From positions 1 to 64,000 of the forward strand of contig NZ_FPBA01000005.1 of NCBI RefSeq assembly GCF_900116515.1: DNA of 64,000 nt. Reading direction: 5' to 3'. Below the pieces are notes generated by a model that saw only the letters and a list, made by a program, of their open reading frames with translations, was not told the origin of the DNA and did not search any database. Made by a program: the position numbers and the translations under genes. Origin of the DNA: Geodermatophilus amargosae (GTDB lineage Bacteria; Actinomycetota; Actinomycetes; Mycobacteriales; Geodermatophilaceae). This document shows, piece after piece, positions 8,489-62,432 of this stretch; position 1 is the first letter of the stretch; each line of letters begins with the position of its first letter.

Positions 8489-9196
8489 TCAGTGCGCGGT
8501 GGGCGGGCCGTCGCCGCGGCGGGCGGGCGGCGTCCGCTCCACCAGGCCGGCGACCGCGGCCAGCCCGCGGCTCACCGCCTGCCCGACCGGGGCCAGCGGT
8601 GCGGGAGCCCGGCGGACGAGGGAGTCGACGGCGTCGCGGCTGCGGTCCAGCAGCGACAGCGGCAGCCCCGACAGCGCGTTGCCCGGCGGACGGCGGGACA
8701 CCGTCGGGTGCGGGCGGGTGGGCGAGATGCGGCGCATCAGCTCCCACCGGCGGCCGAGCCGCCGCAGCTCGGCGGGGTCGAGACGTTCCTGGAGCCGAGG
8801 GAACATCACGTCCTCCTCGTCGCGGACGTCCTCGCGCAGCACCTCGACCAGCCGGGCCAGCCGGGCCGGCCGCTCCGGGTGGTCGGACCCGCCCTCCTCC
8901 AGCGCGGCCACCAGCTCGTTGACCTCCTGGTGCTCGACCTCGATCTGGCGGGTCAGCTCGTCGCCGTCAGGCAGCACCCGGCGGACGACCGGCCAGATGA
9001 CGGTCTCCTCGGCGAAGGCGTGGCTGAACACCAGCCGGTCGATCCGGGTGAGCACCTCCTCCTGCGCGCGGCCGGTGGTGCCGTCGAGCTCGTGCAGCAG
9101 CCGGTCGAGCTCGACGTGGTCCGCGCGCTGGCGCACCAGCACGCTGCCGGGCCCGCCGAGCTCGTCCTCGGTCTGGTCGGCGATGGATCGGGGCAC
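8489..9196 (-). CDS. hemerythrin HHE domain-containing protein
   Basis: 235 residues from a GTG start with a GAGGAGG site 6 nt upstream. The first 135 residues form a four-helix hemerythrin-like bundle whose metal ligands are visible: HVELDRLLHELD, HAFAEETVIWP, HQEVNEL and DEEDVMFPRL. Such proteins bind a di-iron centre and sense or store oxygen or nitric oxide in the cytoplasm. The C-terminal 100 residues (from RRISPTRPHPTVSRRPPG) are Pro/Arg-rich with a moderately hydrophobic helix and are not part of the family core. It is transcribed divergently from the acyl-CoA dehydrogenase at 9360. Confidence 0.9.
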   Translation of the reverse strand: MPRSIADQTEDELGGPGSVLVRQRADHVELDRLLHELDGTTGRAQEEVLTRIDRLVFSHAFAEETVIWPVVRRVLPDGDELTRQIEVEHQEVNELVAALEEGGSDHPERPARLARLVEVLREDVRDEEDVMFPRLQERLDPAELRRLGRRWELMRRISPTRPHPTVSRRPPGNALSGLPLSLLDRSRDAVDSLVRRAPAPLAPVGQAVSRGLAAVAGLVERTPPARRGDGPPTAH

Positions 9197-9359
9197 GGGG
9201 CCCTCCTCGGGACGTGTGCGGTCGGGACCGTCCGTCCCTGCCCGCATCCCGACAGCGCCATGCCGACGTCGCCGTACCGGGTCCCGGGTTGTGCGGCGGG
9301 GCGCGGGGTAGGGCGGGCACACGGGACAGCGGGGTCCCGCCCCCTGAGGAGGCACTCCC

Positions 9360-10541
9360 ATGGCCGACCGGCCCACCGTCACGTCGGACTTCTACGAGTT
9401 CGAGGCCCTCCTGGACGAGCAGGACCGCGCCACCCTGCACCGCGTCCGCACGTTCATGGACGAGCAGGTCGAGCCGATCATCAACGAGTGGTGGACGCGG
9501 GCGCAGTTCCCCCGCCAGCTCATCCCCGGCCTGGCCGAGCTGGGCATCGCCGGCGCGCAGTATTCCGGGCACGGCTCCCCCGGCCGCTCGTCCCTGTTCG
9601 ACGGCATGGTCTCGATGGAGCTCGGCCGCGGCGACCCGTCGGTGGCCACCTTCATGGGCGTCCACGGCGGCCTGGCCATGGGCACGATGCACCTGTGCGC
9701 CTCCGAGGAGCAGAAGGAGCGCTGGCTGCCGGCGATGAGCCGGATGGAGCTCATCGGCGCGTTCGGGCTGACCGAGCCCGAGCACGGCTCCGACGTCGCC
9801 CGGGGGCTGCAGACGACGGCCCGCCGCGACGGCGACGAGTGGGTCCTCGACGGCCAGAAGAAGTGGATCGGCAACGGCAGCTTCGCCGACCTGGTGGTCA
9901 TCTGGGCGCGCGACGTAGAGACCGACCGGGTGCTCGGGTTCGTCGTCGAGACGCCGACACCCGGCTTCAGCGCCGTCGACCTCGAGGACAAGATCGCGCT
10001 GCGTGCGGTGCAGAACGCGCAGATCACCCTCGACGGCGTCCGCGTGCCGGAGGAGAACCGGCTGCAGAACGCCAACAGCTTCCGCGACACCGCCAACGTC
10101 CTGCGGGCGACGCGGGTGAGCGTCGCGTGGTCGGCGGTCGGGTGCTCGCGCGGCGCGTACGAGCACGCGCTGCGCTACGCCACGCAGCGCGAGCAGTTCG
10201 GCCGGCCCATCGCCTCCTTCCAGCTGGTGCAGGACCTGCTGTTCCGGATGCTCGGCAACATCACCGCGTCGGCCGCCCTGTGCGCCCGCGCCTCCCAGCT
10301 GCAGGACTGCGGCATGCTGCGCGACGAGCACGCCTCGATGGCCAAGGGCTACTCGACGATGCGCATGCGCGAGACCGTCGGCTGGGCCCGCGAGCTGATG
10401 GGCGGCAACGGGATCCTGCTGGAGAACCACGTGGGACGGTTCGTGGCCGACGCCGAGGCCATCTACTCCTACGAGGGGACCCGCGAGGTCAACAGCCTCA
10501 TCGTCGGCCGCGCGATCACCGGCACCAGCGCCATCGTCTGA
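9360..10541 (+). CDS. acyl-CoA dehydrogenase, glutaryl-CoA dehydrogenase-like
   Basis: 393 residues, the usual length of the family, from ATG 9360 behind GAGGAGG. Characteristic segments are FGLTEPEHGSDVARGLQT (FAD/substrate loop), LDGQKKWIGNGSFADLVVIWAR, REQFGRPIASFQLVQ, ELMGGNGILLENHVGRFVAD and the catalytic base in YSYEGTREVNSLIVGRAITG. This closing motif is the one found in glutaryl-CoA dehydrogenases. It catalyses FAD-dependent acyl-CoA dehydrogenation in the cytoplasm, possibly with decarboxylation. The usual electron-transfer partners are not in the window. A nested hairpin terminator follows. Confidence 0.9.
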   Translation: MADRPTVTSDFYEFEALLDEQDRATLHRVRTFMDEQVEPIINEWWTRAQFPRQLIPGLAELGIAGAQYSGHGSPGRSSLFDGMVSMELGRGDPSVATFMGVHGGLAMGTMHLCASEEQKERWLPAMSRMELIGAFGLTEPEHGSDVARGLQTTARRDGDEWVLDGQKKWIGNGSFADLVVIWARDVETDRVLGFVVETPTPGFSAVDLEDKIALRAVQNAQITLDGVRVPEENRLQNANSFRDTANVLRATRVSVAWSAVGCSRGAYEHALRYATQREQFGRPIASFQLVQDLLFRMLGNITASAALCARASQLQDCGMLRDEHASMAKGYSTMRMRETVGWARELMGGNGILLENHVGRFVADAEAIYSYEGTREVNSLIVGRAITGTSAIV

Positions 10542-10546
10542 ACGGC

Positions 10547-10595
10547 CCTCCTGCAGGGCCCCGCCGCGAGCCTGCGAGCGGTGGGGAGCAGGAGG
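10547..10595. terminator. nested hairpin terminator
   Basis: Outer arms cctcctgc (10547-10554) and gcaggagg (10588-10595) enclose a second stem ccccgccgc / gcggtgggg with one G-U pair. It lies between two convergent genes ending at 10541 and 10600. Confidence 0.65.
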
Positions 10596-10599
10596 TCCC

Positions 10600-11499
10600 T
10601 CACCGGCCGTCCCACCACCGTGCGGCGGCCTCCTCCGGCGTGCGTCCGTCCACCGCGACGGAGCGGTTGAGCCCGATCAGGTCGATCGTCGTCAGCTGGG
10701 CGCTGACCGCGTCCAGCGCGGTGCGCAGCCGCTGACCGCCGTCGGTGGCCACCGCGGTCCGCACCAGCGGCACCACGTTCTCCCGCGGCTGCAGCGACCG
10801 GTCGTCGCGCAGCAGGTACAGCGAGGCGTCGGTCAACCGGGCGTCGGTCGTCTCCAGCATGCCGACGTCGACCTGCCCGGTGAGCAGCGCCTCCACGGTC
10901 GCCGACCGGGACGGCATGCTGCGGACCTCGGCGAACTGCACGCCGTACACCTCGCGCAGCCCGGGCAGGCAGAACCGCCGCTCGGTGCACTCGGGCGGGC
11001 CGCCGAACACGAGCTGCGGCGCGAGCTCGGCGAGCTGGCTGAGGGTCGTCATGCCGTGCCGCACGGCGAGGTCGGTGAGCACGACGAACCCGTTCTGGTC
11101 CTCGGCCTCGGCGGCGGCCAGGACGGTGAGCCCCCGCGGCGCGAGGGCGGCCGCGAGCCCGTCCCGCAGGACGGCCGGGTCGTGGGACGTCGACCCGGCT
11201 CCTGGCTGCAGGAACTCCGAGGCGGTGCCCAGGTAGTCGACGACGACGTCGACGACGCCCTGCTCGAGCGCCGGGAACACCACCTCGCGGGTGCCGATGC
11301 CGTGCTGCACCGCGACCTCGAACCCGGCCCGGCGCAGCCCCTCGGCGTAGACCTCGGCGAGCGTCTGGTTCTCGGCGAAGTCGTAGGAGGCGATCCGGAC
11401 GACGCCCTCGCGCGGCGGGCCGGCGTCCGCGGCGGGGCTGCCGCACCCGCAGAGCAGGGCGGCCAGGAGTAGCAGGGCGGCAACCGGTCGACGACGCAT
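10600..11499 (-). CDS. OpuAC/ProX-type ABC transporter substrate-binding lipoprotein (orphan)
   Basis: 299 residues starting MRRRPVAALLLL, with a lipoprotein signal ending in LLCGC, so it is anchored outside the membrane. The mature part has the glycine-betaine/choline-type binding fold: VVRIASYDFAENQTLAEVYAEGLRRAGFEV, then ALEQGVVDVVVDYLGTASEFL and GQVDVGMLETTDARL, and a C-terminal helix TIDLIGLNRSVAVDGRTPEEAAARWW. This class delivers quaternary ammonium compounds to an ABC importer. No permease or ATPase gene lies next to it, so it either serves a transporter encoded elsewhere or acts as a receptor. Confidence 0.85.
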   Translation of the reverse strand: MRRRPVAALLLLAALLCGCGSPAADAGPPREGVVRIASYDFAENQTLAEVYAEGLRRAGFEVAVQHGIGTREVVFPALEQGVVDVVVDYLGTASEFLQPGAGSTSHDPAVLRDGLAAALAPRGLTVLAAAEAEDQNGFVVLTDLAVRHGMTTLSQLAELAPQLVFGGPPECTERRFCLPGLREVYGVQFAEVRSMPSRSATVEALLTGQVDVGMLETTDARLTDASLYLLRDDRSLQPRENVVPLVRTAVATDGGQRLRTALDAVSAQLTTIDLIGLNRSVAVDGRTPEEAAARWWDGR

Positions 11500-11623
11500 C
11501 GCGGGCCCTCGCAGGAGGAGGCGGCGCCCCCGCAGGTGACGTGCGGGAGCACGGCAGACGCTAGCCCCGACAGGGACCAAGGTCGATGGTCCCGCGGCCT
11601 CCGCCGGAGCAGCATGAGCCGGC

Positions 11624-13354
11624 ATGGCGGCCACGACGCGGGCCCCGACGACGCCTGCACCGTCGACGGCGGCGCAGCAACTCGCGAGGGGTCAGGCCCG
11701 GCGCCCGGACCCCCCGCCGATCCAGCGCGTCCGCCGCCGGCGCCGCCCCTCGGGTGAGCCGCCGCCGCTGCCGCGCCACCTCAACGCCTCGGGGAAGTGG
11801 TGGCTGGCGCTCAGCGGCGTCGTCCTGGTCAGCGTGCTCGTCGTCGTGGCGACGCGCAGCGTGGCGTTCGTCGACCTGGTGGACACGCGGGTCCTCCAGG
11901 GGATCGCCGGGATCCGCTCGCCGGGCCTGACGCAGGTGGCCGAGGTGGCCGGGGTGCTCGGGACCAGCCGGGCCATCCACGTGCTGTGGCTGCTCAACAT
12001 CGCCGTCCTCGCCGTCTTCCGGCGGTGGCGGCACCTGCTCATCTGGGTGGTCGTCGGGATCCTGGTGGTCAACGTCGCTGCGACGGCCGCGGCCACGCTG
12101 CAGCGGCCGCGGCCCTACGAGGTCGAGGTGCTCGGCCCCTGGCTGGGTTACTCGATGCCCTCCCTGCCGATGACCGTGCTGGCCACGTTCCTGGTCAGCA
12201 GCCTGTACTCGCTGGTCCCCGCCGGCCGCCGCCGGAACACCGCGAAGTGGCTGGTCGGCGCTCTGCTGCTGGTCACCGCCGCGTCCCGGCTGTACCTGGC
12301 CCAGGACCACCCCACCGACGTCGTCGCCGGGATCGTCCTCGGGGTCGCCGCGCCGCTGGCCGCCTTCCGGATGCTGACGCCCAACGAGGTGTACCCGGTC
12401 CGCTACCGGCGGGGCAGCCCCGCCCACCTCGACGTCACCGGGGCGCGCGGCGAGGCGATCACCCGGGCGCTGCAGGACCAGCTCGGCGTCGTGGCCACCG
12501 CGGTGACGCCGTTCGGCCTGGCCGGCTCGGGCGGCTCGACCCCGCTGAGGATCACCGTCAAGGCGGAGGGGGACGAGGAGAGCTGCATCTTCGGCAAGCT
12601 CTACGCCGCCACGCACCTGCGCTCCGACCGCTGGTTCAAGCTCGGCCGCACGCTGCTCTACGGCCGGCTCGAGGACGAGAAGCCCTACCACTCCGTCCGC
12701 CGGCTGGTGCAGTACGAGGACTACGTCCTGCGGCTGCTGTCGGACTCCGGGCTCCCGGTGCCGCACCCGCTCGGGATCGTGGAGATCACGCCGGAGCGCG
12801 AGTACCTGCTGGTCACCGAGTTCATGCAGGGCGCCCGGGAGATCGGCGAGGCCGACATCGACGAGGCGGTGATCGACCAGGGCCTCGCCGTGGTGCGGCG
12901 CATGTGGGAGATCGGGATGGCCCACCGCGACATCAAGCCGGCCAACCTGCTGGTGCGCGACGGCACGCTGTTCCTCATCGACTCCGCGTTCGCCGAGATC
13001 CGTCCCAGTCCGTGGCGGCAGGCCGTGGACCTGGCCAACATGATGCTGGTCCTCGCGCTGCGCACCGACGCGCCGACGGTCTACGCCCGCGCGCGCCTGC
13101 AGTTCTCCGACGAGGAGATCGCCGAGGCCTTCGCCGCCACCCGCGGCCTGACGATGCCCTCCCAGCTGCGCCGCATGCTCAGGGCACAGGGCAAGGACCT
13201 GCACGCGGCCTTCCTCGACCTGCTGCCCTACCGGCTGCCGCCGGTGCGCATCCAGCGCTGGACCTGGCGCCGGGTCGGGCTCAGCCTCGTCACCCTCGTC
13301 GCTCTCCTCGTCACCGTGGGCGTCGTCATCAACCTGTTGGGCTCCCCGCTGTGA
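11624..13354 (+). CDS. membrane protein: degenerate PAP2 domain fused to RIO-like kinase domain
   Basis: 576 residues. Residues 1-55 are Pro/Arg-rich. About 58-255 form a PAP2-type six-helix domain, but its active site looks dead: no lysine before RPRPY, PSLPM instead of PSGH, and SRLYLAQDHPTD in which an aspartate occupies the catalytic-histidine position. About 265-530 form a protein-kinase-like domain of RIO type with ITVKAEGDEE, the catalytic loop AHRDIKPANLL (H434, D436) and the metal-binding LIDSAFAE (D453). A final membrane helix closes the protein. It is the first gene of five with overlapping ends. In related actinobacteria I recall similar kinase domains fused to LPG-synthase-type flippases, which here is a separate downstream gene. 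A regulatory or lipid-kinase role is inference. Confidence 0.8.
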   Translation: MAATTRAPTTPAPSTAAQQLARGQARRPDPPPIQRVRRRRRPSGEPPPLPRHLNASGKWWLALSGVVLVSVLVVVATRSVAFVDLVDTRVLQGIAGIRSPGLTQVAEVAGVLGTSRAIHVLWLLNIAVLAVFRRWRHLLIWVVVGILVVNVAATAAATLQRPRPYEVEVLGPWLGYSMPSLPMTVLATFLVSSLYSLVPAGRRRNTAKWLVGALLLVTAASRLYLAQDHPTDVVAGIVLGVAAPLAAFRMLTPNEVYPVRYRRGSPAHLDVTGARGEAITRALQDQLGVVATAVTPFGLAGSGGSTPLRITVKAEGDEESCIFGKLYAATHLRSDRWFKLGRTLLYGRLEDEKPYHSVRRLVQYEDYVLRLLSDSGLPVPHPLGIVEITPEREYLLVTEFMQGAREIGEADIDEAVIDQGLAVVRRMWEIGMAHRDIKPANLLVRDGTLFLIDSAFAEIRPSPWRQAVDLANMMLVLALRTDAPTVYARARLQFSDEEIAEAFAATRGLTMPSQLRRMLRAQGKDLHAAFLDLLPYRLPPVRIQRWTWRRVGLSLVTLVALLVTVGVVINLLGSPL

Positions 13355-13953
13355 CGCGGCCGGTGGTGCCCACCCTCCTGGCGACCGCCCTGCTGGTGGC
13401 CGGCTGCACGAGCGAGGGCACGAGCGTCAGCACCGAGGTGCCGGCCTGCGCGGCCGGGGACGGCGCCACCGCGGCGAATGGCGTCGTCCTCATGGCGCAG
13501 TCGGTACCGACGGCGTCCTGGCTGCCCTGCGTGGAGAACGTCCCGGTCGGCTGGACCTTCGCCGGCCTCGACGCCCGCTCCGGCTCGGCCCGGTTCTGGC
13601 TGGACTCCGACCGGGACGGCATGCGCGCCATCGAGGTGCGGCTGACCGGTGGGTGCGACACCCGCGGCGCCACCGAGATCCCGAGCGAGCTCGACGACCT
13701 GCGCCGGTTCGAGCGGGTGACCCAGGTGAGCCCGCAGTACCTCGGCCGCCGGTACTACGTCTTCGACGGCGGCTGCCTGACCGTCGTCTTCACGCTCTCC
13801 GGGGACAACCGCGGGGAGCCGCTGGCACTGGCCACGCAGAGCCTCGGCGTCGTGAGCCGGGAAGACCTGGCCACCCAGGTGCACGACGCGAGCGGCGGGC
13901 GGCTGTTCCTCGACCCACCCGCCCGGACCGAGGGCGAGGGGGACCCGCCATGA
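13351..13953 (+). CDS. putative lipoprotein, unknown function
   Basis: 200 residues from a GTG overlapping the previous stop as GTGA. A signal peptide with lipobox LLVAGC (Cys near residue 18) predicts membrane anchoring on the outer face. The mature domain has paired cysteines (CAAGDG, PCVENVPVGW, GGCDTRG, DGGCLTVVF), suggesting two disulfides, and beta-rich segments such as ARFWLDSDRDGMRAIEVRL. No recognised family. Its position inside the PAP2/kinase/flippase operon implies work on the same envelope lipid or as a sensor for it. Confidence 0.75.
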   Translation: MTRPVVPTLLATALLVAGCTSEGTSVSTEVPACAAGDGATAANGVVLMAQSVPTASWLPCVENVPVGWTFAGLDARSGSARFWLDSDRDGMRAIEVRLTGGCDTRGATEIPSELDDLRRFERVTQVSPQYLGRRYYVFDGGCLTVVFTLSGDNRGEPLALATQSLGVVSREDLATQVHDASGGRLFLDPPARTEGEGDPP

Positions 13954-53461: not shown

Positions 53462-54121
53462 TCAGGACTGGTCGGCGACCTCGACGACGACCCGGGCCGG
53501 GTCCTGCAGCGCGTACACCCGGAACGGCGCCTCGGTGCGGGTGCCGACGAAGGTGACCGTCGTCCCCTCGAAGGTCGCGTCGAAGACGACCTCGGTGACG
53601 GTGGCCGTGCCCTGCCCCGGCAGCGGGTCCGGCCCCGACCACTCCTCGACGCCGGTCGCGTACGGGTAGCCGGCGCCGGTGACGGTCACCTGGAGGACCG
53701 CCTCGCCGGCGACGTCGACCGCGTCCCCGCTGCCCTGCGAGCTCGCGGCGTCGACGTAGCGGACGTCCCAGCCCGGCGTGCCGGTACCGCCGACCTCGAA
53801 CACGACCCGGTCGAAGCCGTCGTGCCGGCCGGTGCGGATGTCGGTGACGGTCACCGAGGCGTCGGCCGACGCCTCGGCGGTGTCGGGCTGCGTGTCGGCC
53901 GGGAACGACGGCGCGGCCGTGCCGGTGTCGGCGTCGGTGTCGCTGCCGGCCGGGGTCCCGCTCGCCGGGGCGTCGGACGCGCCGGTCTCCGCGGCGGCGC
54001 TGGAGGACGACGTCGCGGCCGACGACGAGCCCGCCGACGACCTGCCCTCCTCCGCGCAGCCGGTCAGCAGCACCGCTGCGGCGAGCACCGAGGACACGGG
54101 GACGAGGGCGCGGCGGAACAC
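53462..54121 (-). CDS. AMIN-like domain lipoprotein
   Basis: 219 residues from GTG 54121. Lipobox VLLTGC, a Ser/Ala/Asp-rich linker to about residue 85, then one beta domain: VTDIRTGRHDGFDRVVFEVGGTGTPGWDVRYVD, LQVTVTGAGYPYATGVEEW, and FVGTRTEAPFRVYALQDPARVVVEV. This is the AMIN-like pattern of actinobacterial envelope lipoproteins. It probably binds glycan or protein in the periplasm-like space. Confidence 0.8.
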   Translation of the reverse strand: MFRRALVPVSSVLAAAVLLTGCAEEGRSSAGSSSAATSSSSAAAETGASDAPASGTPAGSDTDADTGTAAPSFPADTQPDTAEASADASVTVTDIRTGRHDGFDRVVFEVGGTGTPGWDVRYVDAASSQGSGDAVDVAGEAVLQVTVTGAGYPYATGVEEWSGPDPLPGQGTATVTEVVFDATFEGTTVTFVGTRTEAPFRVYALQDPARVVVEVADQS

Positions 54122-54269
54122 GCGGCGATCGTGACAGCCGGCCGGCCCGGTGCCGGGGACCACGCGTCCGTGTCGTCCGAGGGGAGGAGCCGCCGCGCCC
54201 CGGGAGGAGGGTGGTGTCGGAGTCGCCCCGGAGGCCATGTATCGTTCTCCCTGCCCCCGGCAAGAACGA

Positions 54270-54342
54270 GCCCCCATCGTCTAGTGGTCCAGGACGTCGC
54301 CCTTTCAAGGCGGTAGCACGGGTTCGAACCCCGTTGGGGGCA
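54270..54342 (+). tRNA. tRNA-Glu(TTC)
   Basis: 73 nt. Acceptor GCCCCCA pairs with TGGGGGC; anticodon loop CTTTCAA gives TTC; T arm CGGG-TTCGAAC-CCCG. First of three adjacent tRNAs. Confidence 0.95.
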
Positions 54343-54455: not shown

Positions 54456-54529
54456 GGGCAGGTAGCTCAGTCGGTACGAGCGCTCGCCTGAAAAGCGAGA
54501 GGTCGGCGGTTCGACCCCGCCCCTGCCCA
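54456..54529 (+). tRNA. tRNA-Phe(GAA)
   Basis: 74 nt. Acceptor GGGCAGG pairs with CCTGCCC; anticodon loop CTGAAAA gives GAA; T arm GGCGG-TTCGACC-CCGCC. Its 3' part from the anticodon stem is repeated at 61870-61917, so it is an island insertion site. Confidence 0.95.
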
Positions 54530-54532
54530 CAC
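54485..54532. repeat. left att repeat in tRNA-Phe 3' end
   Basis: 48 nt matching 61870-61917 with one mismatch (a54492 against g61877). It runs from the anticodon stem through the acceptor plus three flanking bases. Confidence 0.92.
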
Positions 54533-54649
54533 TGCTGATGCGACCTGCGGTCTTGCGAGTGGTCGAGCGCTGAAGACATGCACGTACGAGTGTCGGCAAC
54601 CGCATGACTCTCGCCGCACGACCTCTCACTGGCAGCACCTGCGCCGTGA

Positions 54650-54810
54650 CTTCGTGACCCCCTGCGCGCCGAGGGCAAGTCACCGAACACACTGCGGCTG
54701 TACCCAGGCGCGGTGGACGAGCTTCAGACGTGGTGCCTGGCTGACGGTGGGCCGGGCGATCCGACAGCGGTGACCACCCCTGCTGAGCTGACCGCGGGAC
54801 CCTGCTCACG
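54650..54810 (+). pseudogene. N-terminal fragment of a tyrosine integrase
   Basis: The frame gives LRAEGKSPNTLRLYPGAVDE followed by LQTWCLADGG, a typical SAM-like core-binding start of phage integrases. It has no start codon of its own and runs into the end of wecB; the catalytic domain is gone. Its position just inside the tRNA-Phe repeat fits the lost integrase of this island. Confidence 0.75.
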
Positions 54811-55972
54811 CCGCGCCCGCGGTCAGGACGCGTGACCGGAACTCCTCCGCCGCGGGACCGAGGCCGAACAGGTGCCGCACCGCCTGTACGCACCGTCCGG
54901 CGGCCGCACCGTCGCCGTAGGGGTTCACCGCCCGAGCCATCGTGGCGTAGGCGGCGGGGTCGGTCAGCAGCTCCTCCGTGGCGCGGACGAGGACGTCCGG
55001 GTCGGTGCCCACGAGCCGGACCGTGCCCGCCTCCACCGCCTCGGGTCGCTCCGTGTTGTCCCGCAGGACGAGCACCGGCTTGCCGAGGCTGGGCGCCTCC
55101 TCCTGGACGCCGCCGCTGTCTGTGAGAATGAGCGTGGCGCGGGCCATGAGCCGGGCGAAGTCCCCGTAGGCGAGCGGGTCGACGACGAGCACGTTGCCGA
55201 GCTGCTCGAGCTCCGGCAGCAACGCCTCCCGCACCACGGGGTTGCGGTGCACCGGGACCACGACCCGCAGGTCCGGGTGACGCCGAGCGATGGTGGCGAC
55301 CGCCCGGCCGACGCCGCGCATCGGCTCGCCCCACGACTCGCGGCGGTGGGTGGTGACCAGCAGGACCGGCCGGTCGTCGTCGTCCAGGGTGGTCAGGGCG
55401 GGCTCGGTGTATGGGTGGCGCCGGCGCACGACGTCGACGAGCGCGTCGATGACGGTGTTGCCCGTGACGACGACGTTCGCGGCGTCCACCCCCTCCCGCA
55501 GCAGGTTGGCACGGCTGGCCTGCGTCGGTGCCAGGTGCAGGGTGGCCAGCTGACTGGTCAGCCGCCGGTTCATCTCCTCGGGAAAGGGCGAGGTGACGTC
55601 GCCCGTGCGCAGGCCCGCCTCCAGGTGCACGACGGGGACCCGCTCGTAGAAGGCCGCGAGCGCAGCGGAGAGCGTGGTGGTCGTGTCGCCCTGTACCAGG
55701 ACTGCGTCGGGCTGCCGGTCGTGGATGATCGGGACGAGGCCCGCCAGCGCCCGCACCGTGATCCCGACCAGGGTCTGCCGCGGTTCGATAATGTCCAGGT
55801 CGTGCTCGGCCTGGATGTCGAACAGTTCGTTGACCTGGTCGAGCATCGACCGGTGCTGGCCGGTGAGGACCACCGAGGCGGCGAGGTCCGGGGCCGCGTC
55901 GAGCCCGCGGACGACGGGCGCCATCTTCACCGCCTCCGGACGAGTTCCGTACACCACCATGACGTGCCTCAT
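54806..55972 (-). CDS. wecB: UDP-N-acetylglucosamine 2-epimerase (non-hydrolysing)
   Basis: 388 residues from ATG 55972 (Met5 is also possible). Full-length for WecB/MnaA: VMVVYGTRPEAVKMAPVV, VLVQGDTTTTLSAALAAFY, VVHLEAGLRTGDVTSPFPEEMNR, VTTHRRESWGEP, VVPVHRNPVVRE and ILTDSGGVQEEAPSLGKPVLVLRDNTERPEAV. It interconverts UDP-GlcNAc and UDP-ManNAc in the cytoplasm. As last gene of the polysaccharide operon it should supply UDP-ManNAc to the GT2 synthase. Confidence 0.95.
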   Translation of the reverse strand: MRHVMVVYGTRPEAVKMAPVVRGLDAAPDLAASVVLTGQHRSMLDQVNELFDIQAEHDLDIIEPRQTLVGITVRALAGLVPIIHDRQPDAVLVQGDTTTTLSAALAAFYERVPVVHLEAGLRTGDVTSPFPEEMNRRLTSQLATLHLAPTQASRANLLREGVDAANVVVTGNTVIDALVDVVRRRHPYTEPALTTLDDDDRPVLLVTTHRRESWGEPMRGVGRAVATIARRHPDLRVVVPVHRNPVVREALLPELEQLGNVLVVDPLAYGDFARLMARATLILTDSGGVQEEAPSLGKPVLVLRDNTERPEAVEAGTVRLVGTDPDVLVRATEELLTDPAAYATMARAVNPYGDGAAAGRCVQAVRHLFGLGPAAEEFRSRVLTAGAA

Positions 55973-55998
55973 GTCCTACCTCCGGGAGGTCGACCGGC

Positions 55999-56691
55999 CT
56001 AGACGGCCGTGAGCTGGATGTCCTCGAACTCGACGGCGGCGTCCTCGGTGTAGAGCCCCACGGACCCGCCCGTGTAGGGGTCACCGGTGTCCACGACCCG
56101 CGCCAGCGGTGCGCCGTCGACGGACACCTCGATCTCGGCGCCCACCTGGCGGATCCGGACCTCGTACCAGGACCCCACCGGGAAGGTCGGTGCCGTGCCG
56201 CTCGTCAGGAACCGCTGGGCACCGGGGAACGCGGGGTCGGCCTTGCCGACCTCCCACCCGTTGGGTTTCAGGGTGACGTAGTAGAAGTGCTGGTTGTCGG
56301 TGTGGTGCCACACCAGCCAGGCGACCTCCCAGGGGTTCCCCCTCGGTCTGCGGAGCTGCTCGCGTGTCCTCAGCCGCACCGAGACCTCGACGTCCCCGAA
56401 CTCCTGCTCGCTGAGCGCCAGCGCAGCGGCCGTCTTGCTCTCGTCGTCGACGGTCTGCGGCGCCAGCCGGTACAGCCAGCCCTCGGGACGCTGTGTGCCG
56501 CTGGCGGTGCCGTAGCCGTCGAAGGCCAGCCGCCACCCGCCGCATCGGTCTCCCTGGTGCCAGGGATCGCAGACGACGGAGTCCGTGGCGTCGGCATCGG
56601 CGACGTCGCCGCCGGTGCACCCGGTGAGGAGTGTGCACGTGACCAGGCCGCCGAGCAGCGACCGGGCGAACCCCCCGCGGCCGGCACCCAC
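55999..56691 (-). CDS. LamG/DUF1080-like lipoprotein of the polysaccharide locus
   Basis: 230 residues from GTG 56691, chosen for the signal peptide (FARSLLGGLVTCTLLTGC) and a GGGGAG site; the start lies 4 nt after the GT2 stop. The mature domain is a concanavalin-like jelly roll: WRLAFDGYGTASG, EQEFGDVEVSVRLRTREQL, WEVAWLVWHHTDNQHFYYVTLKPNGW, EIEVSVDGAPLARVVD and GGSVGLYTEDAAVEFEDIQL. It is a clear paralogue of 60334-61128. It probably binds or cleaves the exported polymer on the cell surface. Confidence 0.8.
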   Translation of the reverse strand: MGAGRGGFARSLLGGLVTCTLLTGCTGGDVADADATDSVVCDPWHQGDRCGGWRLAFDGYGTASGTQRPEGWLYRLAPQTVDDESKTAAALALSEQEFGDVEVSVRLRTREQLRRPRGNPWEVAWLVWHHTDNQHFYYVTLKPNGWEVGKADPAFPGAQRFLTSGTAPTFPVGSWYEVRIRQVGAEIEVSVDGAPLARVVDTGDPYTGGSVGLYTEDAAVEFEDIQLTAV

Positions 56692-56695
56692 CGGG

Positions 56696-58045
56696 TCAGG
56701 CTCCCCGTCGGCTGGAGGCCGATCGGGCACCGGTGCCCTTGCCGGGGAAGGCGACGACGACGCCGTCCGACCCGACCCCGGTGTGGCCGGACCGGGCGCG
56801 GTCGGGCAGCCGCTCGGTCTTGAGCCACGAGCGGCGGCCCTGCAGTACCCGGAGGACCGCCCACCAGCCCGCGGCCATCCACAACAGCCCGTAGAGGACG
56901 AAGGCGTGCCCGAAGAGGACGACACCCAGCCGGCTGATCCGATCCCCTCGGCGCCGGTACACGTGCGCGAACAGGACTCCCGGCAGGAAGGTCAGCAGGT
57001 ACCAGGACAGGAGGACCGGCCACTGCAGCACCTGTGCCCGTGCCAGCGGCGAGGCCGCGACCCCCACGACCGAGGCGACAAGCGACAGCACCATCAGTGA
57101 GCTGACCAGGATCAGGACCGGCATCAGGATGGTGTGCAGAGTCTCGGCGGCCGCGCGCCCCGACGAGTGTCGCAGCACCTGCGGCACCAGCCGCCAGGCC
57201 TGCAGGTTGCCCTGGAACCAGCGGGATCGCTGTCGGACCAGCCGGCGCAGGCTCGTGAGGCCCTGCTGGTGGACCGCGACGAGGGGGCAGTGCAAGGTCC
57301 ACCAGCCGGCCAGCTGCAGGCGGACGCCCAGGTCGAGGTCCTCGGTGAGGACGTCGGACCACGGGGCGGGACCGAGACTCGTCAGCGCGGCCAGCCGGGT
57401 GAACTGGCCGTTGCCACCCAGACCGGCGATACCGAGCCTGTTGTGGGCCACCTGGAAGATCGACGTGTAGGTGACGAACTCCATGTCCTGCAGGCGGGTG
57501 AGGAGTCCCTGCCGCCGGTTGCCGATCCGCACGCTGATCTGCACACCGCCCACCCTCGGGTCGGCGAAGTAGGGCACGACGGCCTCGAGCGTGTGCGGGT
57601 CGAGGCGGCCGTCTGCGTCGAGCAGACCGATGACGACCCGGTCGGGATCGCGGTCCGCCAGCTCCACGGTCACCAGGTGGTCCACCGCGGCGTTCAGGGC
57701 GGCTCCCTTGCCGCGCCGGGCGTCAGGCAGCGTCCGCTGCAGGACGCGTACACGGGGGTCCGGGTGCGCCCGGGCGATGTCGGCGGTGGCGTCCGTCGAA
57801 CCGTCGTCGATGACGAGGACGAGGAACTCGTGCAGCGGCAGGGAGATCAGGCGGTCGAGGGTGCCAGCCAGCACCTCCTCCTCGTCCAGGCACGGGACCA
57901 GGAACACGAAGAAGAGGGTGCCGGTCCCTGATCGGTGGAGGCGCAGTGGCACGACACCGGTCTCCAGGTACATCCCGAGGGCGTAGGTGAGCGAGCAGAT
58001 CACCGCTGCAGAGGCCGCCAGGATGAGGATCCCGGTCGTGGTCAC
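56696..58045 (-). CDS. processive family 2 glycosyltransferase (polysaccharide synthase)
   Basis: 449 residues from GTG 58045. One N-terminal helix, then a GT-A domain with DDGS (80-83), DADG (143-146), TEDLDLG (234-240) and the processivity motif QRSRW (272-276), followed by about four membrane helices. This is the hyaluronan/cellulose/PgaC-like layout, so it should polymerise a UDP-sugar and export the chain. With WecB next to it the donor may be UDP-ManNAc or UDP-GlcNAc. Overlaps the small membrane gene upstream (GTGA). The tail is basic and possibly regulatory. Confidence 0.9.
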   Translation of the reverse strand: MTTTGILILAASAAVICSLTYALGMYLETGVVPLRLHRSGTGTLFFVFLVPCLDEEEVLAGTLDRLISLPLHEFLVLVIDDGSTDATADIARAHPDPRVRVLQRTLPDARRGKGAALNAAVDHLVTVELADRDPDRVVIGLLDADGRLDPHTLEAVVPYFADPRVGGVQISVRIGNRRQGLLTRLQDMEFVTYTSIFQVAHNRLGIAGLGGNGQFTRLAALTSLGPAPWSDVLTEDLDLGVRLQLAGWWTLHCPLVAVHQQGLTSLRRLVRQRSRWFQGNLQAWRLVPQVLRHSSGRAAAETLHTILMPVLILVSSLMVLSLVASVVGVAASPLARAQVLQWPVLLSWYLLTFLPGVLFAHVYRRRGDRISRLGVVLFGHAFVLYGLLWMAAGWWAVLRVLQGRRSWLKTERLPDRARSGHTGVGSDGVVVAFPGKGTGARSASSRRGA

Positions 58046-58227
58046 GGGTTCCCCGCACCGGCGTCACGAGGACGCCTCCGGGCCCGGTGGGGCTGGACGT
58101 GCCTGGGTGGGGGGTGGAGGAACCGGCTGGCCACGACCAGGCAGACGAGCACGAGCAGGTAGCAGGTGAAGGCCGCACCGGCGGTCGCCAGCGCCAAGCG
58201 CGCGAGCCCGAACGCCGCGTCACCCAT
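58042..58227 (-). CDS. small membrane protein of the polysaccharide operon
   Basis: 61 residues from ATG 58227 with GGGAGC upstream. One helix (LALATAGAAFTCYLLVLVCLVVA), then a Pro/Arg/His-rich tail. Its stop overlaps the GT2 start. The size and place resemble PgaD-like accessory subunits of synthases, but there is no sequence proof. Confidence 0.7.
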   Translation of the reverse strand: MGDAAFGLARLALATAGAAFTCYLLVLVCLVVASRFLHPPPRHVQPHRARRRPRDAGAGNP

Positions 58228-58299
58228 CGCCGCTCCCGCGCTCGGCCGGGCGGCCGGCGTGCTGGTGACGGCCGGGAGCGGGCGACGGCGGCACGGGGT

Positions 58300-59940
58300 T
58301 CACAGCTCCCCCGGGGACACGAACTCGTAGCCGAGGTCCTGGAGCCGGTCGACGATCCAGTGCAGTCCCTCGGTGCCCAGGTAAGGGTGGTAGAAGAAGC
58401 TGGCGACACCGTCCCGGACGACGAGGTTCTGCCGGGCACCGTCCACGATGGCCTGCAGGGACCCGACGCCCACCGCGGGGATCGGCGGCCCCTGGACGAA
58501 GCCGAGGTTCTCCGGGATGACCGTGCTCCCGTATCCGTCGCGCACGACATAGGGCGCGTACTGGGCGAACAGGAAGTCGTTCATCGGGCCGGCACTCCAT
58601 CCTCCCGACAGGTAGTAGGGCCGGTCGTAACGGGCGGCGAAGAGCTGCGCGGCCGCCTCGTAGGAGGCTGCGGAGGCGGCGTAGTGGGGGAACTCGAACA
58701 CCTGCGGCCTCGGCAGACCGGTCCGGGTGACCTCGGTGATGGCGGAACGCAGGCGCTCGGTGGCCCACGCCGGCGAGTCCCCGGGGACCGGGCCCTGGTA
58801 GACCAGTGCGCCGTCGGGCGCGCGCTGGACCTGGAAGAACTCGAAGTCCGCGCCGCTGCCGCCGGTGTCGGGGTTCCGCTGGCCGCCGAGCTGGTGGGTG
58901 TACCCGTGCAGCACCATGGTGCCGCCACGCTGGATCATGTGGGCGACCGCCTCGACCACGTCCGGCCGCTCCACCAGTCTCACCGTGCGGCGCGGCTCGA
59001 CGTCCAGGCCGTCGACGGCCACCGGGTACAGGGCGAAGCTGTACGGCACGCCGGCCCGGTTCAGCGCGTCGGCCGTGCGGCGGAGCTCCTCGGGATCGGA
59101 CAGGGGATTGACGTCCTCGAGGCGCAGGAGGGCGCGATGCCGCACGGGGGCATCCGGTCGGAGCAGGTCGATGAACAGATCGCAGACGGCGAGGTAGCGG
59201 TCCCCGCTCTCTCCAGCGGGGTCAAGGGCGACCTCGGCGACGTACGTGAGGGCGCCCGACCGCACGGCCCAGGGGGTCCTGCTCCCGTCGTCGTGGACCG
59301 TGTCGGCCAGGACCTGCACCCTGGTGGGGTCGGTGACGGTGATGCCGGCGGGGGCACCGGCATCCGACGGTCGAGAGAGCTCGGCGCCCTCGTACGCGAC
59401 CCGCAGCGCCGGCCGCGGATCGGCGGGGGTCCAGGAGATCCCCTGCGCCTCCAGGCCCGTCAGCTCGTCCAGGTTGGCCCCCAGCCAGAGGACCGGCGTG
59501 CCGCCGTTCCTCACGTCCGCGACGAAGGCTGGCGGGAGCACCTGGTCGGCGTTGGTACCCAGGTACACGACCCCCCGGTGGGCGCCCATCTCACCCGGCG
59601 CGTAGGTGGAGACGCCGTGGACCTGTGGTGTACCGAAGTGGGAGCCGAGCGCCGCCGCGAGCATGCCGTAGAGCTGGGACATCTGCTGGTACTCGCCCGT
59701 GTCGTCGAAGAGGACGAGCGAGGACGCCGTACCCGACGGCGCGGACGGGGCCTGCACGGCACTCGCTGGGAACTCCAGCCCGGAGAGGTCGGCGCGGCGC
59801 TGCCCGGCTTCCTCGACCCGGACGGCCGCGGACAGGCCCACCAGGGCGGCGGACGAGAAGAAGGCCGTGCACACAACGAGTGCGAGGAGCCACCGGGCGA
59901 GGACCCTGGGCCGCGACGGCACGTCGTCCGTGTCCTCCAT
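58300..59940 (-). CDS. DUF2334-family protein (polysaccharide deacetylase fold)
   Basis: 546 residues; ATG 59940 is preferred, 11 nt after GGGGAG (GTG 59952 overlaps that site). A signal anchor (VLARWLLALVVCTAFFSSAALVGLSAAV) leads to an extracellular protein. The N-terminal half resembles a glutamine-amidotransferase-like beta/alpha domain (VLFDDTGEYQQMSQLYGML, HRGVVYLGTNAD). The C-terminal half has DUF2334 marks: LLRLEDVNPLSDPEELRRTAD, VLHGYTHQLGGQ and FEFPHYAASAASYEAA, the aspartate and histidines of metal-dependent deacetylases. It probably deacetylates or trims the polymer outside the cell. First gene of the five-gene operon. Confidence 0.85.
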   Translation of the reverse strand: MEDTDDVPSRPRVLARWLLALVVCTAFFSSAALVGLSAAVRVEEAGQRRADLSGLEFPASAVQAPSAPSGTASSLVLFDDTGEYQQMSQLYGMLAAALGSHFGTPQVHGVSTYAPGEMGAHRGVVYLGTNADQVLPPAFVADVRNGGTPVLWLGANLDELTGLEAQGISWTPADPRPALRVAYEGAELSRPSDAGAPAGITVTDPTRVQVLADTVHDDGSRTPWAVRSGALTYVAEVALDPAGESGDRYLAVCDLFIDLLRPDAPVRHRALLRLEDVNPLSDPEELRRTADALNRAGVPYSFALYPVAVDGLDVEPRRTVRLVERPDVVEAVAHMIQRGGTMVLHGYTHQLGGQRNPDTGGSGADFEFFQVQRAPDGALVYQGPVPGDSPAWATERLRSAITEVTRTGLPRPQVFEFPHYAASAASYEAAAQLFAARYDRPYYLSGGWSAGPMNDFLFAQYAPYVVRDGYGSTVIPENLGFVQGPPIPAVGVGSLQAIVDGARQNLVVRDGVASFFYHPYLGTEGLHWIVDRLQDLGYEFVSPGEL

Positions 59941-60333
59941 CGGGCTGACCACTCCCCGTCCGCTTCCTCAGCTCCTCACACCGCAGGGTCCTCACCACGG
60001 GAAACGCGTCTCGCGCATCTCGATGGGTGCAGCGGCCGGAATACTGCAGAAATAGAAGCAGTCCATCTGCGGTGCGTACAGGCTTCCCGTCGATTTCTTT
60101 GCGTAACGCCGAGTCAGTGATCGCTGACCCTTTGCGAGAATGCACGGTCGTATTCGGAACGGTCACCGAGTGCCACGGGACATGGACGCCGTTCTCCCGC
60201 AGCGCTCCGTTCGGGCCATAGCCACGATCCAGTACCGTCGGGCGCGTCGGGGCAGGCTAGGGTGAGCACGTGGCTACATTGCGTAACGAATGTCCATCTG
60301 GTCCCCACCCGCCCTCGCATCGGAGATACCAGC
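59941..60333. promoter_or_regulatory. 392-bp divergent promoter region of the polysaccharide island
   Basis: It separates the DUF2334 operon from the paralogous lipoprotein gene. AT content is higher than nearby. The 10-mer ttgcgtaacg occurs at 60099-60108 and at 60279-60288. No gene is convincing. Confidence 0.45.
60276..60293. promoter_or_regulatory. 18-bp inverted repeat, candidate operator
   Basis: acatt-gcgtaacg-aatgt, with exact 5-bp arms around the ttgcgtaacg motif, 41 nt before the lipoprotein start. Confidence 0.4.
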
Positions 60334-61128
60334 ATGCGTGTGTCCCGAGCGACCACAGCAGCCGTCGCTGCCTCCGTTCTCCTCGTGCCGGCCCTCCTCG
60401 GCTGCGCTGGCCCCGCGGACCTCGCGCGGCACGCCGCCGGGGACGCCGCCACGCTGGAGGCCGTGGACGGGGCAGCGGAGGACCCGGTGACCGACCGGCC
60501 CGCTCTCGCGCGTGACGACGTCCTCCTCGGCAACCCGTTCGCTGGGATCGAGACCGACGCCCCCTGGGTGGACGGCAGCCGGCACGGCGCCTGGCGGTCG
60601 CTCTACGACGGCTACGGCACCGTCCTCCTGCGCGGCGGCGAGCCGGCGGTGCTCTCCCAGCGACCGATGGCGGCCACGTGGGAGGACGAGACCCACGCAG
60701 CGCTCGCCGTCACGGTGCAGGAGTACGGGGCCGTCGACGTGATCGTGCGGCAACGCACGGTCGAGCAACTCCGCGCGTCGAACCCGAACACGTGGGAAGT
60801 GCCCTGGTTGCTGTGGGCGCACTCCGACGACGAGCACTTCTACTACCTCGTCCTCAAGCCCAACGGCTGGGAACTGGGGAAGGCCGACCCGGCCTACCCG
60901 GGCGCCCAGCGCTTCCTCGCCACCGGTTCCAGCCCCACCTTCCCCCTCGGGGACTGGCACACCGCACGGGTCCGGCACACCGGCGACACGATCGAGGTCT
61001 GGGGCGACGGCCGGCGGCTGACCCGGTTCGTCGACCGCGAGCGGCCCTACTCCGGCGGGCACGTCGGTCTCTACACCGAGGACGCGCACGTGGAGCACGC
61101 CGACCTGGAGATCCGCCGGGCGGACTGA
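60334..61128 (+). CDS. LamG/DUF1080-like lipoprotein, paralogue of 55999-56691
   Basis: 264 residues from ATG 60334 preceded by CGGAGA. Lipobox ALLGC, then a linker and the same jelly-roll domain: WRSLYDGYGTVLLRGG, VQEYGAVDVIVRQRTVEQLR, WEVPWLLWAHSDDEHFYYLVL, KPNGWELGKADPAYPGAQRFL and GGHVGLYTEDAHVEHADLEI. It is divergent from the synthase operon. Together the pair suggests binding of the same or related glycan from both transcription units. Confidence 0.8.
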   Translation: MRVSRATTAAVAASVLLVPALLGCAGPADLARHAAGDAATLEAVDGAAEDPVTDRPALARDDVLLGNPFAGIETDAPWVDGSRHGAWRSLYDGYGTVLLRGGEPAVLSQRPMAATWEDETHAALAVTVQEYGAVDVIVRQRTVEQLRASNPNTWEVPWLLWAHSDDEHFYYLVLKPNGWELGKADPAYPGAQRFLATGSSPTFPLGDWHTARVRHTGDTIEVWGDGRRLTRFVDRERPYSGGHVGLYTEDAHVEHADLEIRRAD

Positions 61129-61264
61129 CGTCGCCGGCCCGTCCGCCCCGAGCGGCACGCCCGCCCGGGTGGGTGCCCGGCACGGCCTCCGACAGGCGGT
61201 TTCGCGTGGCGGCGGCCGCAGCGTTGCGGGGGCTGCACTCCCACGACGACGCAAGAGAGCCCCC

Positions 61265-61550
61265 GTGGCCGCAACCGAGGGCCCTGGCTCCACCCCGTCC
61301 AGTGTCGCCGCCACGGACCCCGTCGCCGCGAACGCCCGCCCCGACGGCGGCGGTGGGCCGACCGGCGCCGTGGTCGTGGTGGCGCTGGTGTCGGCCATCT
61401 CGGGGCTGCTGAACGGCTACGAAACGGGCATCATCTCCGGAGCGCTGCTGCAGATCAGCGACGAGTTCGGCATCGGCACGGCTGGGAGCGGATGATCGCG
61501 CCCTCCATCCGGTCGGTGCCGTGATCGGGGCTCTGGTCTTCAGTCGGCCC
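61265..61550 (+). pseudogene. sugar-porter MFS, N-terminal remnant
   Basis: From GTG 61265 the frame gives a polar N-terminus and first helix VVVVALVSAISGLLNGYETGIISGALLQIS, the sugar-porter start. It stops at 61495, but VGAVIGALVFSRPSERW, the next expected segment, follows at about 61515 in another frame, and then the match ends. Frameshifted and truncated. Confidence 0.7.
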
Positions 61551-61869
61551 AGCGAGCGTTGGCACCACGACCTACTCCGGATCAAGACAGCATCCGCTCC
61601 ACCAGGTCGGCCGGCTCCCTGGCACCCAGGATGGTGGTGGTCGGCCCCCTGCCGCCCCGACGGGCCACGAACACCCGGCCGGGCCGTTGACGCTGGCCTC
61701 GCGCAGGCGCGTCCGCCCGCAAGGGAAGGACGATCATGCCGTCACGATTCGTGCTGACACATCTGCCCGGTTCTGTGAGTCGGAACTCCTCCGGCCACCG
61801 CGTGACGTCGGCTCCGACGTGCCGCTCTCCGCTCCATACGACGAATGGATGTCGAGGTCAGCGGCGTGA
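61551..61869. other. intergenic debris before the right att repeat
   Basis: No gene can be supported. Short open frames lack ribosome sites and family motifs. Confidence 0.35.
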
Positions 61870-61917
61870 CGCCTGAGAAGCGAGAGGTCGGCGGTTCGAC
61901 CCCGCCCCTGCCCACAC
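61870..61917. repeat. right att repeat: copy of tRNA-Phe 3' end
   Basis: 48 nt matching 54485-54532 with one mismatch in the anticodon-loop part; the 5' half of the tRNA is missing here. Confidence 0.92.
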
Positions 61918-61940
61918 ACTCTCTCCCCGGACGGAGCCCG

Positions 61941-62432
61941 GTGGTCGTCGAGGTCCGCGACCCGGCTCGGGACCCGGCGCTGGCCGCCCGCCTGCTCGAG
62001 GTCCAGCACGCCGCCTACGCCGTCGAGGCGCGGCTCATCGGCGACGACCGCATCCCCGCGCTTCACGAGGATCTGGCCGGCCTGACGTCGGCCGGCCTGT
62101 CCTGGCTGGTCGCCCGCGACGGCACGGCGGTCCTCGGCGCCCTGGGCTGGCAGTCCACCAGCGACGGCGTCGACGTCGACCGCCTCGTCGTCGACCCGGC
62201 GTACGCGCGCCGCGGCACCGGCCGGGCGCTGGTCGCCGCCGTCCTCGACCTGGCCGGGGACCGGCCGGTCACCGTCTCGACCGGCCGGGACAACACCCCG
62301 GCCCGCCGGCTCTACGCCCGGGCCGGGTTCCGGGAGGTCGCCGAGCGGGAGGTCTTGCCGGGCCTGTGGGTGGTCGACCTGGCCCGCACGGTTCAGACCC
62401 CGACGACGCGGTCGGCCACCACCTGGTCGTAG
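61941..62432 (+). CDS. GNAT-family N-acetyltransferase
   Basis: 163 residues from GTG 61941 behind CGGAGCCC. Standard GNAT fold: VQHAAYAVEARLIGDDRIP, GLSWLVARDGTAVLGALGWQ, VDRLVVDPAYARRGTGRALVAAVL (acetyl-CoA loop RRGTG) and VSTGRDNTPARRLYARAGFREV. It begins just outside the right island repeat, so it belongs to the ancestral tRNA-Phe neighbourhood. Its end overlaps the convergent glycosyltransferase gene by 40 bp. Substrate unknown. Confidence 0.85.
   Translation: MVVEVRDPARDPALAARLLEVQHAAYAVEARLIGDDRIPALHEDLAGLTSAGLSWLVARDGTAVLGALGWQSTSDGVDVDRLVVDPAYARRGTGRALVAAVLDLAGDRPVTVSTGRDNTPARRLYARAGFREVAEREVLPGLWVVDLARTVQTPTTRSATTWS

Follow-up and report, generated by a model that had tools for sequence, protein, structure and literature searches.

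A tRNA-Phe island in Geodermatophilus amargosae with a predicted synthase-dependent, ManNAc-based surface polysaccharide system

The window analysed here, a stretch of 64,000 nucleotides from Geodermatophilus amargosae (contig C48; genome size 5.87 Mb), carries six complete genes between a tRNA-Phe gene and a GNAT-type gene; they encode the UDP-N-acetylglucosamine (UDP-GlcNAc) 2-epimerase WecB, a GT2 synthase, a 61-aa membrane protein, a DUF2334 protein and two jelly-roll lipoproteins, A and B. We lean, with modest confidence, towards reading this island as a system for a synthase-dependent, partly de-N-acetylated polysaccharide based on N-acetylmannosamine (ManNAc) at the cell surface, a reading drawn from sequence comparisons and structure models. 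The six-gene set entered the source genome by insertion at the tRNA-Phe gene, a feature that a preliminary description of this DNA had missed. That description had proposed that the genes make up a self-contained exopolysaccharide set: an epimerase supplying the precursor, a GT2 of processive type, a deacetylase-like protein that is exported and two lipoproteins paralogous to each other. The six genes do lie at or near the positions it gave, the QRSRW motif is present in the GT2, and this account of the set holds; the two lipoproteins are about 51% identical.

When 249 genomes of the order and 396 of the phylum were searched at a threshold of 1e-10, relatives of the DUF2334 protein turned up in 6 and 10 respectively, the source genome being included in both counts; three plasmid records and one Aminicenantes contig gave further loci, this last search detecting close relatives only. 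When neighbourhood partners were sought by tblastn in the 19 DUF2334 loci from outside the source genome, WecB and a related GT2 were each found in 15 and a jelly-roll protein in 6; the GT2 count rises to 16, since locus L041 has an NfrB-like GT2 that tblastn missed. The families thus do co-occur elsewhere, a point on which the preliminary description had let its proposal stand or fall. The 19 loci are not independent, because two of them, L044 and L045, belong to a single genome, and L042, L044 and L046 are close copies; L021, found via DUF2334, was kept in the counts, its GT2 sharing only 32% identity and scoring better with PgaC and other models.

The partners can also be joined physically. 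In L049, L050, L051 and L053, DUF2334 and GT2 share a single frame that is 962 to 1209 codons long, and DUF2334 is fused to a jelly-roll domain in L054 and L056; Pfam confirmed the fusions in L049 and L054, hydrophobic spans lie between the domains in L049, L053, L054 and L056, and in L055 the two parts are adjacent, overlapping frames. On a Streptomyces plasmid, genes for a jelly-roll protein, WecB, GT2, DUF2334 and a GH113 protein stand side by side. The operon on a Comamonadaceae plasmid (L041:6746-15749) runs from WecB through the NfrB-like GT2 (PRK15489 600 bits, cut-off 537), a 100-aa protein, DUF2334 and an NfrA_C TPR protein to DUF4434, and we read it as an Nfr-like system carrying a deacetylase-like gene. 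The jelly-roll model was positive in 5 of 249 order genomes and 6 of 396 phylum genomes; jelly-roll and DUF2334 occur together in 3 order genomes (of 5 and 6 positives) and 4 phylum genomes (of 6 and 10), for which the chance is 8e-5 and 3e-6, or 2e-3 and 8e-5 after removal of the source genome, by a statistic that ignores relatedness. Within the G275 family (39 genomes, searched at 1e-20), DUF2334 proteins of this type occur in 3 genomes and jelly-roll proteins in exactly these 3. Clustering, fusion and co-occurrence counts together lead us to reject chance assembly of the set.

The DUF2334 protein has an N-terminal membrane anchor, a middle domain and a C-terminal CE4-type deacetylase domain (about residues 271-550), and is predicted to be a metal-dependent deacetylase of the CE4 type with invariant metal-site motifs. 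In its structure model (pLDDT 79.6) the C-terminal half has a CE4/NodB fold; the best match is ArnD (Z 19.0, 218 residues aligned, 2.6 Å), and many polysaccharide deacetylases are among the fold matches at Z 14-19. Residues R277, E279, D280, H349, G350, H353, P422-H423-Y424, P480-E481 and H522-P523 are invariant in 15 aligned rows, from which L047 was excluded for its frame breaks, although it is counted as a locus. By analogy, we take E279-D280, H349, H353 and H522 to represent the Asp/His/His metal motif and a further His. PF10096 was the sole Pfam match up to E 0.1, with no match to the main CE4 family, and no convincing solved relative was found by sequence for this protein or for lipoprotein A; a search of phages for relatives of the DUF2334 protein from L041 found none. 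DUF2334, a family with no named function in Pfam, would gain a testable role as the de-N-acetylase of a ManNAc polymer, a role that we propose because of its natural fusions to the synthase. Two relatives are peculiar in themselves: at L047:7769-10841 (G058) the WecB and DUF2334 genes are split into several frames, through decay or assembly error, and at L021:9731-13606, from Aminicenantes, DUF2334 lies inside a 1291-aa protein whose later part matches no Pfam family over cut-off and looks like a glycosidase-type barrel, reminiscent of the PgaB layout.

On the minus strand the genes are transcribed in the order DUF2334 protein, 61-aa membrane protein, GT2, lipoprotein B and WecB, with lipoprotein A divergent on the plus strand. 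The small gene, the GT2 gene and that of lipoprotein B are read as an operon because the first overlaps the GT2 start by 4 bp and the likely GTG start of lipoprotein B, read from the sequence, lies 4 bp past the GT2 stop codon. The preliminary description likened the 61-aa protein to an accessory subunit, and a conserved subunit we could not uphold. The protein has no convincing family match in Pfam or NCBIfam; a 62-aa membrane protein adjoins the GT2 in two loci that are almost the same, L042 and L046, while the 100-aa protein at this position in L041 has no Pfam match and L039 has no annotated gene there. A conserved PgaD-like subunit was therefore rejected as an identity, as the neighbours in L042/L046 and L041 show no evidence of kinship.

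The GT2 has one N-terminal and three C-terminal hydrophobic stretches, and residues D81, S83, D143, D145, E235, D236, Q272, R273, R275 and W276 are invariant in 16 aligned rows. Pfam found only GT2 domains in it, with no MshEN domain, and the NfrB and PRK14716 models gave no match up to E 0.1. Its product might instead be a GlcNAc polymer resembling poly-N-acetylglucosamine (PNAG), or a mixed hexosamine, with WecB acting in another pathway or in the reverse direction: a deacetylase plus a GT2 is also the logic of PNAG, and the PgaC/IcaA model does match the GT2. The match reaches only 84 bits, however, far under the cut-off of 422; WecB is frequent beside this GT2 lineage, and the island copy looks dedicated because a second WecB of more distant kinship (226 bits) is encoded elsewhere in the source genome, so that we regard a GlcNAc product as quite improbable. 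The claim in the preliminary description that this is not a pga system agrees with the PgaC score, and neither pel nor cellulose parts were detected by Pfam. That second WecB lies in L141 (G000:C28:413500-433400, at 8567-13426) together with a PgaC-like GT2 (117 bits, cut-off 422), and between the two is an exosortase-family protein with an open frame (TIGR04178 34.7 bits, cut-off 23); we read L141 as a separate exosortase-linked WecB and GT2 locus within the source genome.

The association of this GT2 lineage with WecB extends beyond DUF2334. At 1e-40 the GT2 query matched 36 of the 249 order genomes; 30 of these have no DUF2334 relative, and the neighbourhoods of 20 (L118-L137) were fetched, leaving out 10. 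WecB lies within about 3.0 kb of the GT2 in 16 of the 20; with two WecB matches in the 5.9-Mb source genome, we estimate roughly that such nearness would arise by chance well under once in 20. Neither DUF2334 nor the jelly-roll protein gave a tblastn match in these 20 loci. The tested neighbours included exosortase-family proteins in L119 and L121 and choice-of-anchor P proteins in L127 and L135, and the GT2 of L127 is a curated exosortase-P-associated glycosyltransferase (NF053846, 709 bits); L127:9351-13696 and L121:630-4789 are example coordinates of such GT2 and WecB loci, whose glycan may be ManNAc-based.

These relatives bring in a different explanation, that the GT2 is no polymer synthase and makes a short ManNAc glycolipid or glycan, which may also hold for the exosortase loci with this GT2 and WecB, the DUF2334 protein and the lipoproteins modifying and binding that glycolipid or a cell-wall glycan. 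NF053846 is indeed the closest curated family of the window GT2 (278.7 bits, below the cut-off of 520), related GT2s sit beside the exosortase-family and choice-of-anchor P proteins just named, and we know of no established polymer from exosortase or choice-of-anchor P loci with this GT2. We nonetheless consider a short glycan unlikely, given that the processive-type motifs are present with most of their residues invariant, that the DUF2334-GT2 fusions resemble the logic of a synthase plus deacetylase, and that the six island proteins have no exosortase match in Pfam or NCBIfam; a single exosortase match in the source genome, at E 0.001, sits on another contig, C28.

Mapped on a tree of 36 GT2 sequences, the DUF2334 label requires 3 changes, compared with 12.1 in shuffles; in this tree the window GT2 has the Streptomyces plasmid GT2 as its sister (96/90). 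The WecB tree shows less order (6 changes, compared with 11.0 in shuffles) and places the window WecB as sister to that of L121, an exosortase-type locus (98/90), while the window DUF2334 protein groups with L043 (86/82); matches spanning fewer than 700 bases were left out of the DUF2334 and WecB trees. Since the GT2 lineage stays with WecB and the trees differ, the core looks like a WecB and GT2 pair with exchangeable partners.

The two lipoproteins were called LamG proteins in the preliminary description, and the fold part of that claim is borne out, as they have a LamG/ConA-type sandwich. As a family name LamG was rejected (the Pfam family is PF06439, 3keto-disac_hyd, and the best fold match is CBM66), and we keep it only as a general description of the fold. 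The model of lipoprotein A (pLDDT 88) matches CBM66 (4azz) at Z 21.2 over 157 aligned residues and 2.0 Å, the other listed folds following at Z 18.3 and lower. It could be argued that these proteins are enzymes, 3-keto-glycoside hydratases/hydrolases or GH16-like, which process the polymer and do not bind it: PF06439 is named for a 3-keto-disaccharide hydrolase, the fold matches include GH16 enzymes and, at Z about 15-16, 3-keto-glucal hydratases, and the homologue from Streptomyces carries the annotation of a family 16 glycoside hydrolase. The best match is nevertheless a binding module, ahead of the enzymes, and we think an enzymatic role rather unlikely.

We thus suggest the following mechanism for the favoured ManNAc polysaccharide. 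WecB, by its family membership, would convert UDP-GlcNAc to UDP-ManNAc; the membrane GT2, judging from its motifs, membrane spans and linkage to WecB, would polymerise UDP-ManNAc and pass the chain outward; the DUF2334 enzyme, membrane-anchored and lying on the outside, would take some N-acetyl groups off the emerging chain, as its fold, invariant motifs and fusions suggest; and the two lipid-anchored CBM66-like lipoproteins may bind the chain and hold it on the cell, which would fit their fold and lipobox and the DUF2334-jelly-roll fusions. The order of the fusions (span, DUF2334, span, GT2) would have the synthase on the inner and the deacetylase on the outer side, so that the chain is met on leaving. 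Where the preliminary description allowed a polymer based on ManNAc or GlcNAc, ManNAc is favoured, through the NfrB-like locus as well as the linkage to WecB, and GlcNAc is the less favoured part of that claim; DUF2334 is tied to a ManNAc polymer by association, because L041 joins it to an NfrB-like synthase. The donor sugar is a prediction, as the models used do not recognise the window GT2 as an NfrB.

Several observations weigh against this polysaccharide. For the same reason, namely that the NfrB models miss the window GT2, the NfrB argument has only DUF2334 and WecB to pass through, and with the longer NfrB model even the GT2 of L041 reaches only 507 bits against a cut-off of 1170. Jelly-roll proteins were not found in 13 of the 19 DUF2334 loci, and weaker jelly-roll matches occur without DUF2334 in G089 and G135 (order) and in G491 and G630 (phylum), with no WecB, GT2 or DUF2334 nearby in G089 and G135. 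WecB is lacking from 4 of the 19 DUF2334 loci (L040, L048, L051 and L052, of which L052 is a 3.5-kb contig and L048 has its gene near a contig end) and from 4 of the 20 further GT2 loci. The WecB, GT2 and DUF2334 trees are not in full agreement, so the parts did not always move as one unit. The CBM66 likeness is one of fold only, at 13% identity, in proteins that Pfam places in PF06439. The PF10096 cut-off of 26 bits is passed by 13 of 26 genus genomes, the source included; the strong match (167 bits) is found in the source genome only, and the 12 others pass narrowly (best 31.4 bits, mostly partial matches) and are taken, by supposition, as other deacetylase-fold proteins. Polymer, donor, linkage and deacetylation are all features that we infer for this lineage.

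The insertion itself is evident from comparison of the tRNA-Phe locus, which was fetched in 24 relatives (a 25th, G021, yielded no such locus). In 8 of them (G002, G003, G005, G006, G007, G016, G024 and G025) the right flank begins exactly at the tRNA end and the two flanks are joined with exactly the repeat overlap, which marks an empty site; G002, the nearest relative, is 92% identical in the left flank. The right flank resumes at most 0.62 kb from tRNA-Phe in 14 further relatives, so that the insertion is absent from 22 of the 24; in the 1.5 kb fetched for G018 and G011 the right flank was not seen. From the 46-bp repeat and the empty sites, 7385 bp were inserted in the source genome, and three features of a tRNA-site integrative island were found: insertion at a tRNA 3' end, direct repeats and empty sites in relatives. 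Foreign base composition is not evident, the GC content of the island (0.71-0.73 in 2-kb steps) being inside the range of the window; no sigma-70-like promoter sites were found, one terminator-like match was at chance level, and the Rfam scan gave no RNA families beyond three tRNAs.

Two pieces of the insertion lie outside the six genes (Table 1). The decayed stretch by the tRNA is possibly a remnant of an integrase N-terminus, an impression from its translation, in which Pfam found no match; DNA resembling it adjoins the same tRNA in G011 (L076; 73.7% over 175 columns). The short frame near the right end is perhaps a truncated gene. Both could be taken as signs that the whole island is a decayed, silent relic, the short frame being a transporter-like fragment that scores below cut-off; to this we give very little credence, as the six cargo frames are all open and the DUF2334 and GT2 motifs are kept.

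Table 1. Positions in the window of the six island genes, the insertion and neighbouring features.
Feature	Position	Strand	Evidence
WecB, non-hydrolysing UDP-GlcNAc 2-epimerase	54806-55972	-	TIGR00236 472 bits (cut-off 210); PF02350 386 bits
Jelly-roll lipoprotein B (CBM66-like)	55999 to about 56691	-	PF06439 39.8 bits (cut-off 26.8); lipobox-like LTGC
GT2 synthase	56696-58045	-	PF13641 109 bits, PF13632; motifs DDGS, DAD, TED, QRSRW
61-aa membrane protein	58042-58227	-	One hydrophobic span; overlaps GT2 start
DUF2334 protein	58300-59952	-	PF10096 164.7 bits (cut-off 26)
Jelly-roll lipoprotein A (CBM66-like)	60262-61128	+	PF06439 30.1 bits (cut-off 26.8); lipobox-like LLGC
Inserted segment, 7385 bp including right repeat	54531-61915	none	Comparison of tRNA-Phe loci in relatives
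tRNA-Phe (GAA), insertion site	54456-54530	+	ARAGORN; Rfam tRNA 69.9 bits
Left repeat, last 46 bp of tRNA-Phe	54485-54530	+	Repeat comparison
Right repeat, copy of tRNA-Phe 3' end	61870-61915	+	98% identical over 46 bp
Decayed stretch by tRNA-Phe	54592-54808	+	No Pfam match; translation examined
Short frame inside insertion	61169-61495	+	Sugar-transporter N-terminus match, 11.5 bits, below cut-off
GNAT-type gene, right neighbour of the six-gene set	61845-62432 (frame)		
AMIN-like protein, just outside the island beside tRNA-Glu/Asp/Phe genes	53462-54277	-	PF24837 157.8 bits

A whole exopolysaccharide-type pathway would thus be packed in a 7.4-kb cassette at a tRNA gene. We speculate, tentatively and with more doubt than confidence, that it belongs to a mobile, self-contained class of synthase-dependent exopolysaccharide systems spread over several phyla, in which a DUF2334 deacetylase, coupled and sometimes fused to the synthase, renders a WecB-fed poly-ManNAc cationic as it is exported and lipid-anchored CBM66-like lectins hold it, the WecB and GT2 core being rewired in relatives for exosortase-anchored proteins. 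If true, this would suggest that exosortase-anchored proteins are bound to a ManNAc glycan or move together with it, and it would connect three separate literatures: those on the Nfr/NGR phage-receptor glycan, on the Listeria ManNAc polymer and on exosortase-associated glycosyltransferases, for whose glycan no description was found in the open-licence literature. That literature also yielded nothing linking DUF2334 with exopolysaccharide or exosortase with XrtP, and nothing on poly-N-acetylmannosamine. The word "undescribed" in the preliminary description has to be given up for WecB with a GT2, as in Nfr/NGR, and for a poly-ManNAc exopolysaccharide with its own deacetylase, as in Listeria Pss (PMC8669469, PMC8669472, PMC6307706); it may still hold for this gene combination, of which we found no description in the open-licence literature, so that an earlier account elsewhere is possible.

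Among known systems, the XrtP-associated loci share the GT2 lineage and a WecB neighbour with the island, but differ in their exosortase-family and choice-of-anchor proteins (L119, L121, L127 and L135) and in the lack of DUF2334 and jelly-roll proteins from the 20 loci fetched; conversely, the window GT2 falls below the XrtP-type cut-off and no exosortase was found in the six island proteins. Pga/Ica systems for PNAG likewise pair a GT2 with a CE4-type deacetylase, and the Aminicenantes DUF2334 sits in a long protein, whereas in the island the GT2 scores far below the PgaC cut-off, DUF2334 replaces the usual CE4 family and WecB is present. The ydaJKLMN genes of Bacillus subtilis form an exopolysaccharide operon with glycosyltransferases, and PF10096 gave matches in the B. 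subtilis control genome; YdaL is presumably its DUF2334 protein. In that system, by contrast, a lectin points to Gal/GalNAc, and the available part of the source does not name WecB in the five-gene operon (PMC13274460).

The five synthase-dependent exopolysaccharides counted in a 2020 survey are cellulose, acetylated cellulose, PNAG, alginate and Pel (PMC7112194); judged by its Pfam and NCBIfam matches, the gene content of the island set appears to fit none of the five. In Listeria a poly-beta-1,4-ManNAc carrying galactose is reported, with the deacetylase PssB (PMC5039582, PMC6307706). Compared by description, the island would share with Pss a Gram-positive setting and a ManNAc polymer that has a deacetylase of its own; Pss is further described as activated by c-di-GMP, besides the galactose on its polymer (PMC5039582). 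In the Nfr/NGR system of E. coli (NfrB, NfrA, YbcH and WecB; the phage N4 receptor), NfrB was proposed from genetics to build a ManNAc polymer from the WecB product (PMC8669469, PMC8669472), and WecB is reported to be linked to NfrB where other pathways do not supply it (PMC8669469). A GT2 with DxD, TED and QxxRW motifs, dependence on WecB and a proposed ManNAc polymer are, as far as these sources go, features of Nfr; the island GT2 shares these motifs and has wecB in the same gene run, and the DUF2334 locus L041 combines an NfrB-like GT2 with an NfrA_C TPR protein. Unlike Nfr, the island has a GT2 that the NfrB models miss, together with DUF2334 and CBM66-like lipoproteins, and neither an NfrA-type outer membrane porin nor an MshEN domain was found among the six proteins by Pfam or NCBIfam, MshEN being reported in 1,705 of 1,841 NfrB homologues and so common without being universal (PMC8669469). 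While the Nfr features tested (NfrB model, MshEN, NfrA) were thus not found in it, we suggest that the set would work like Nfr and Pss.

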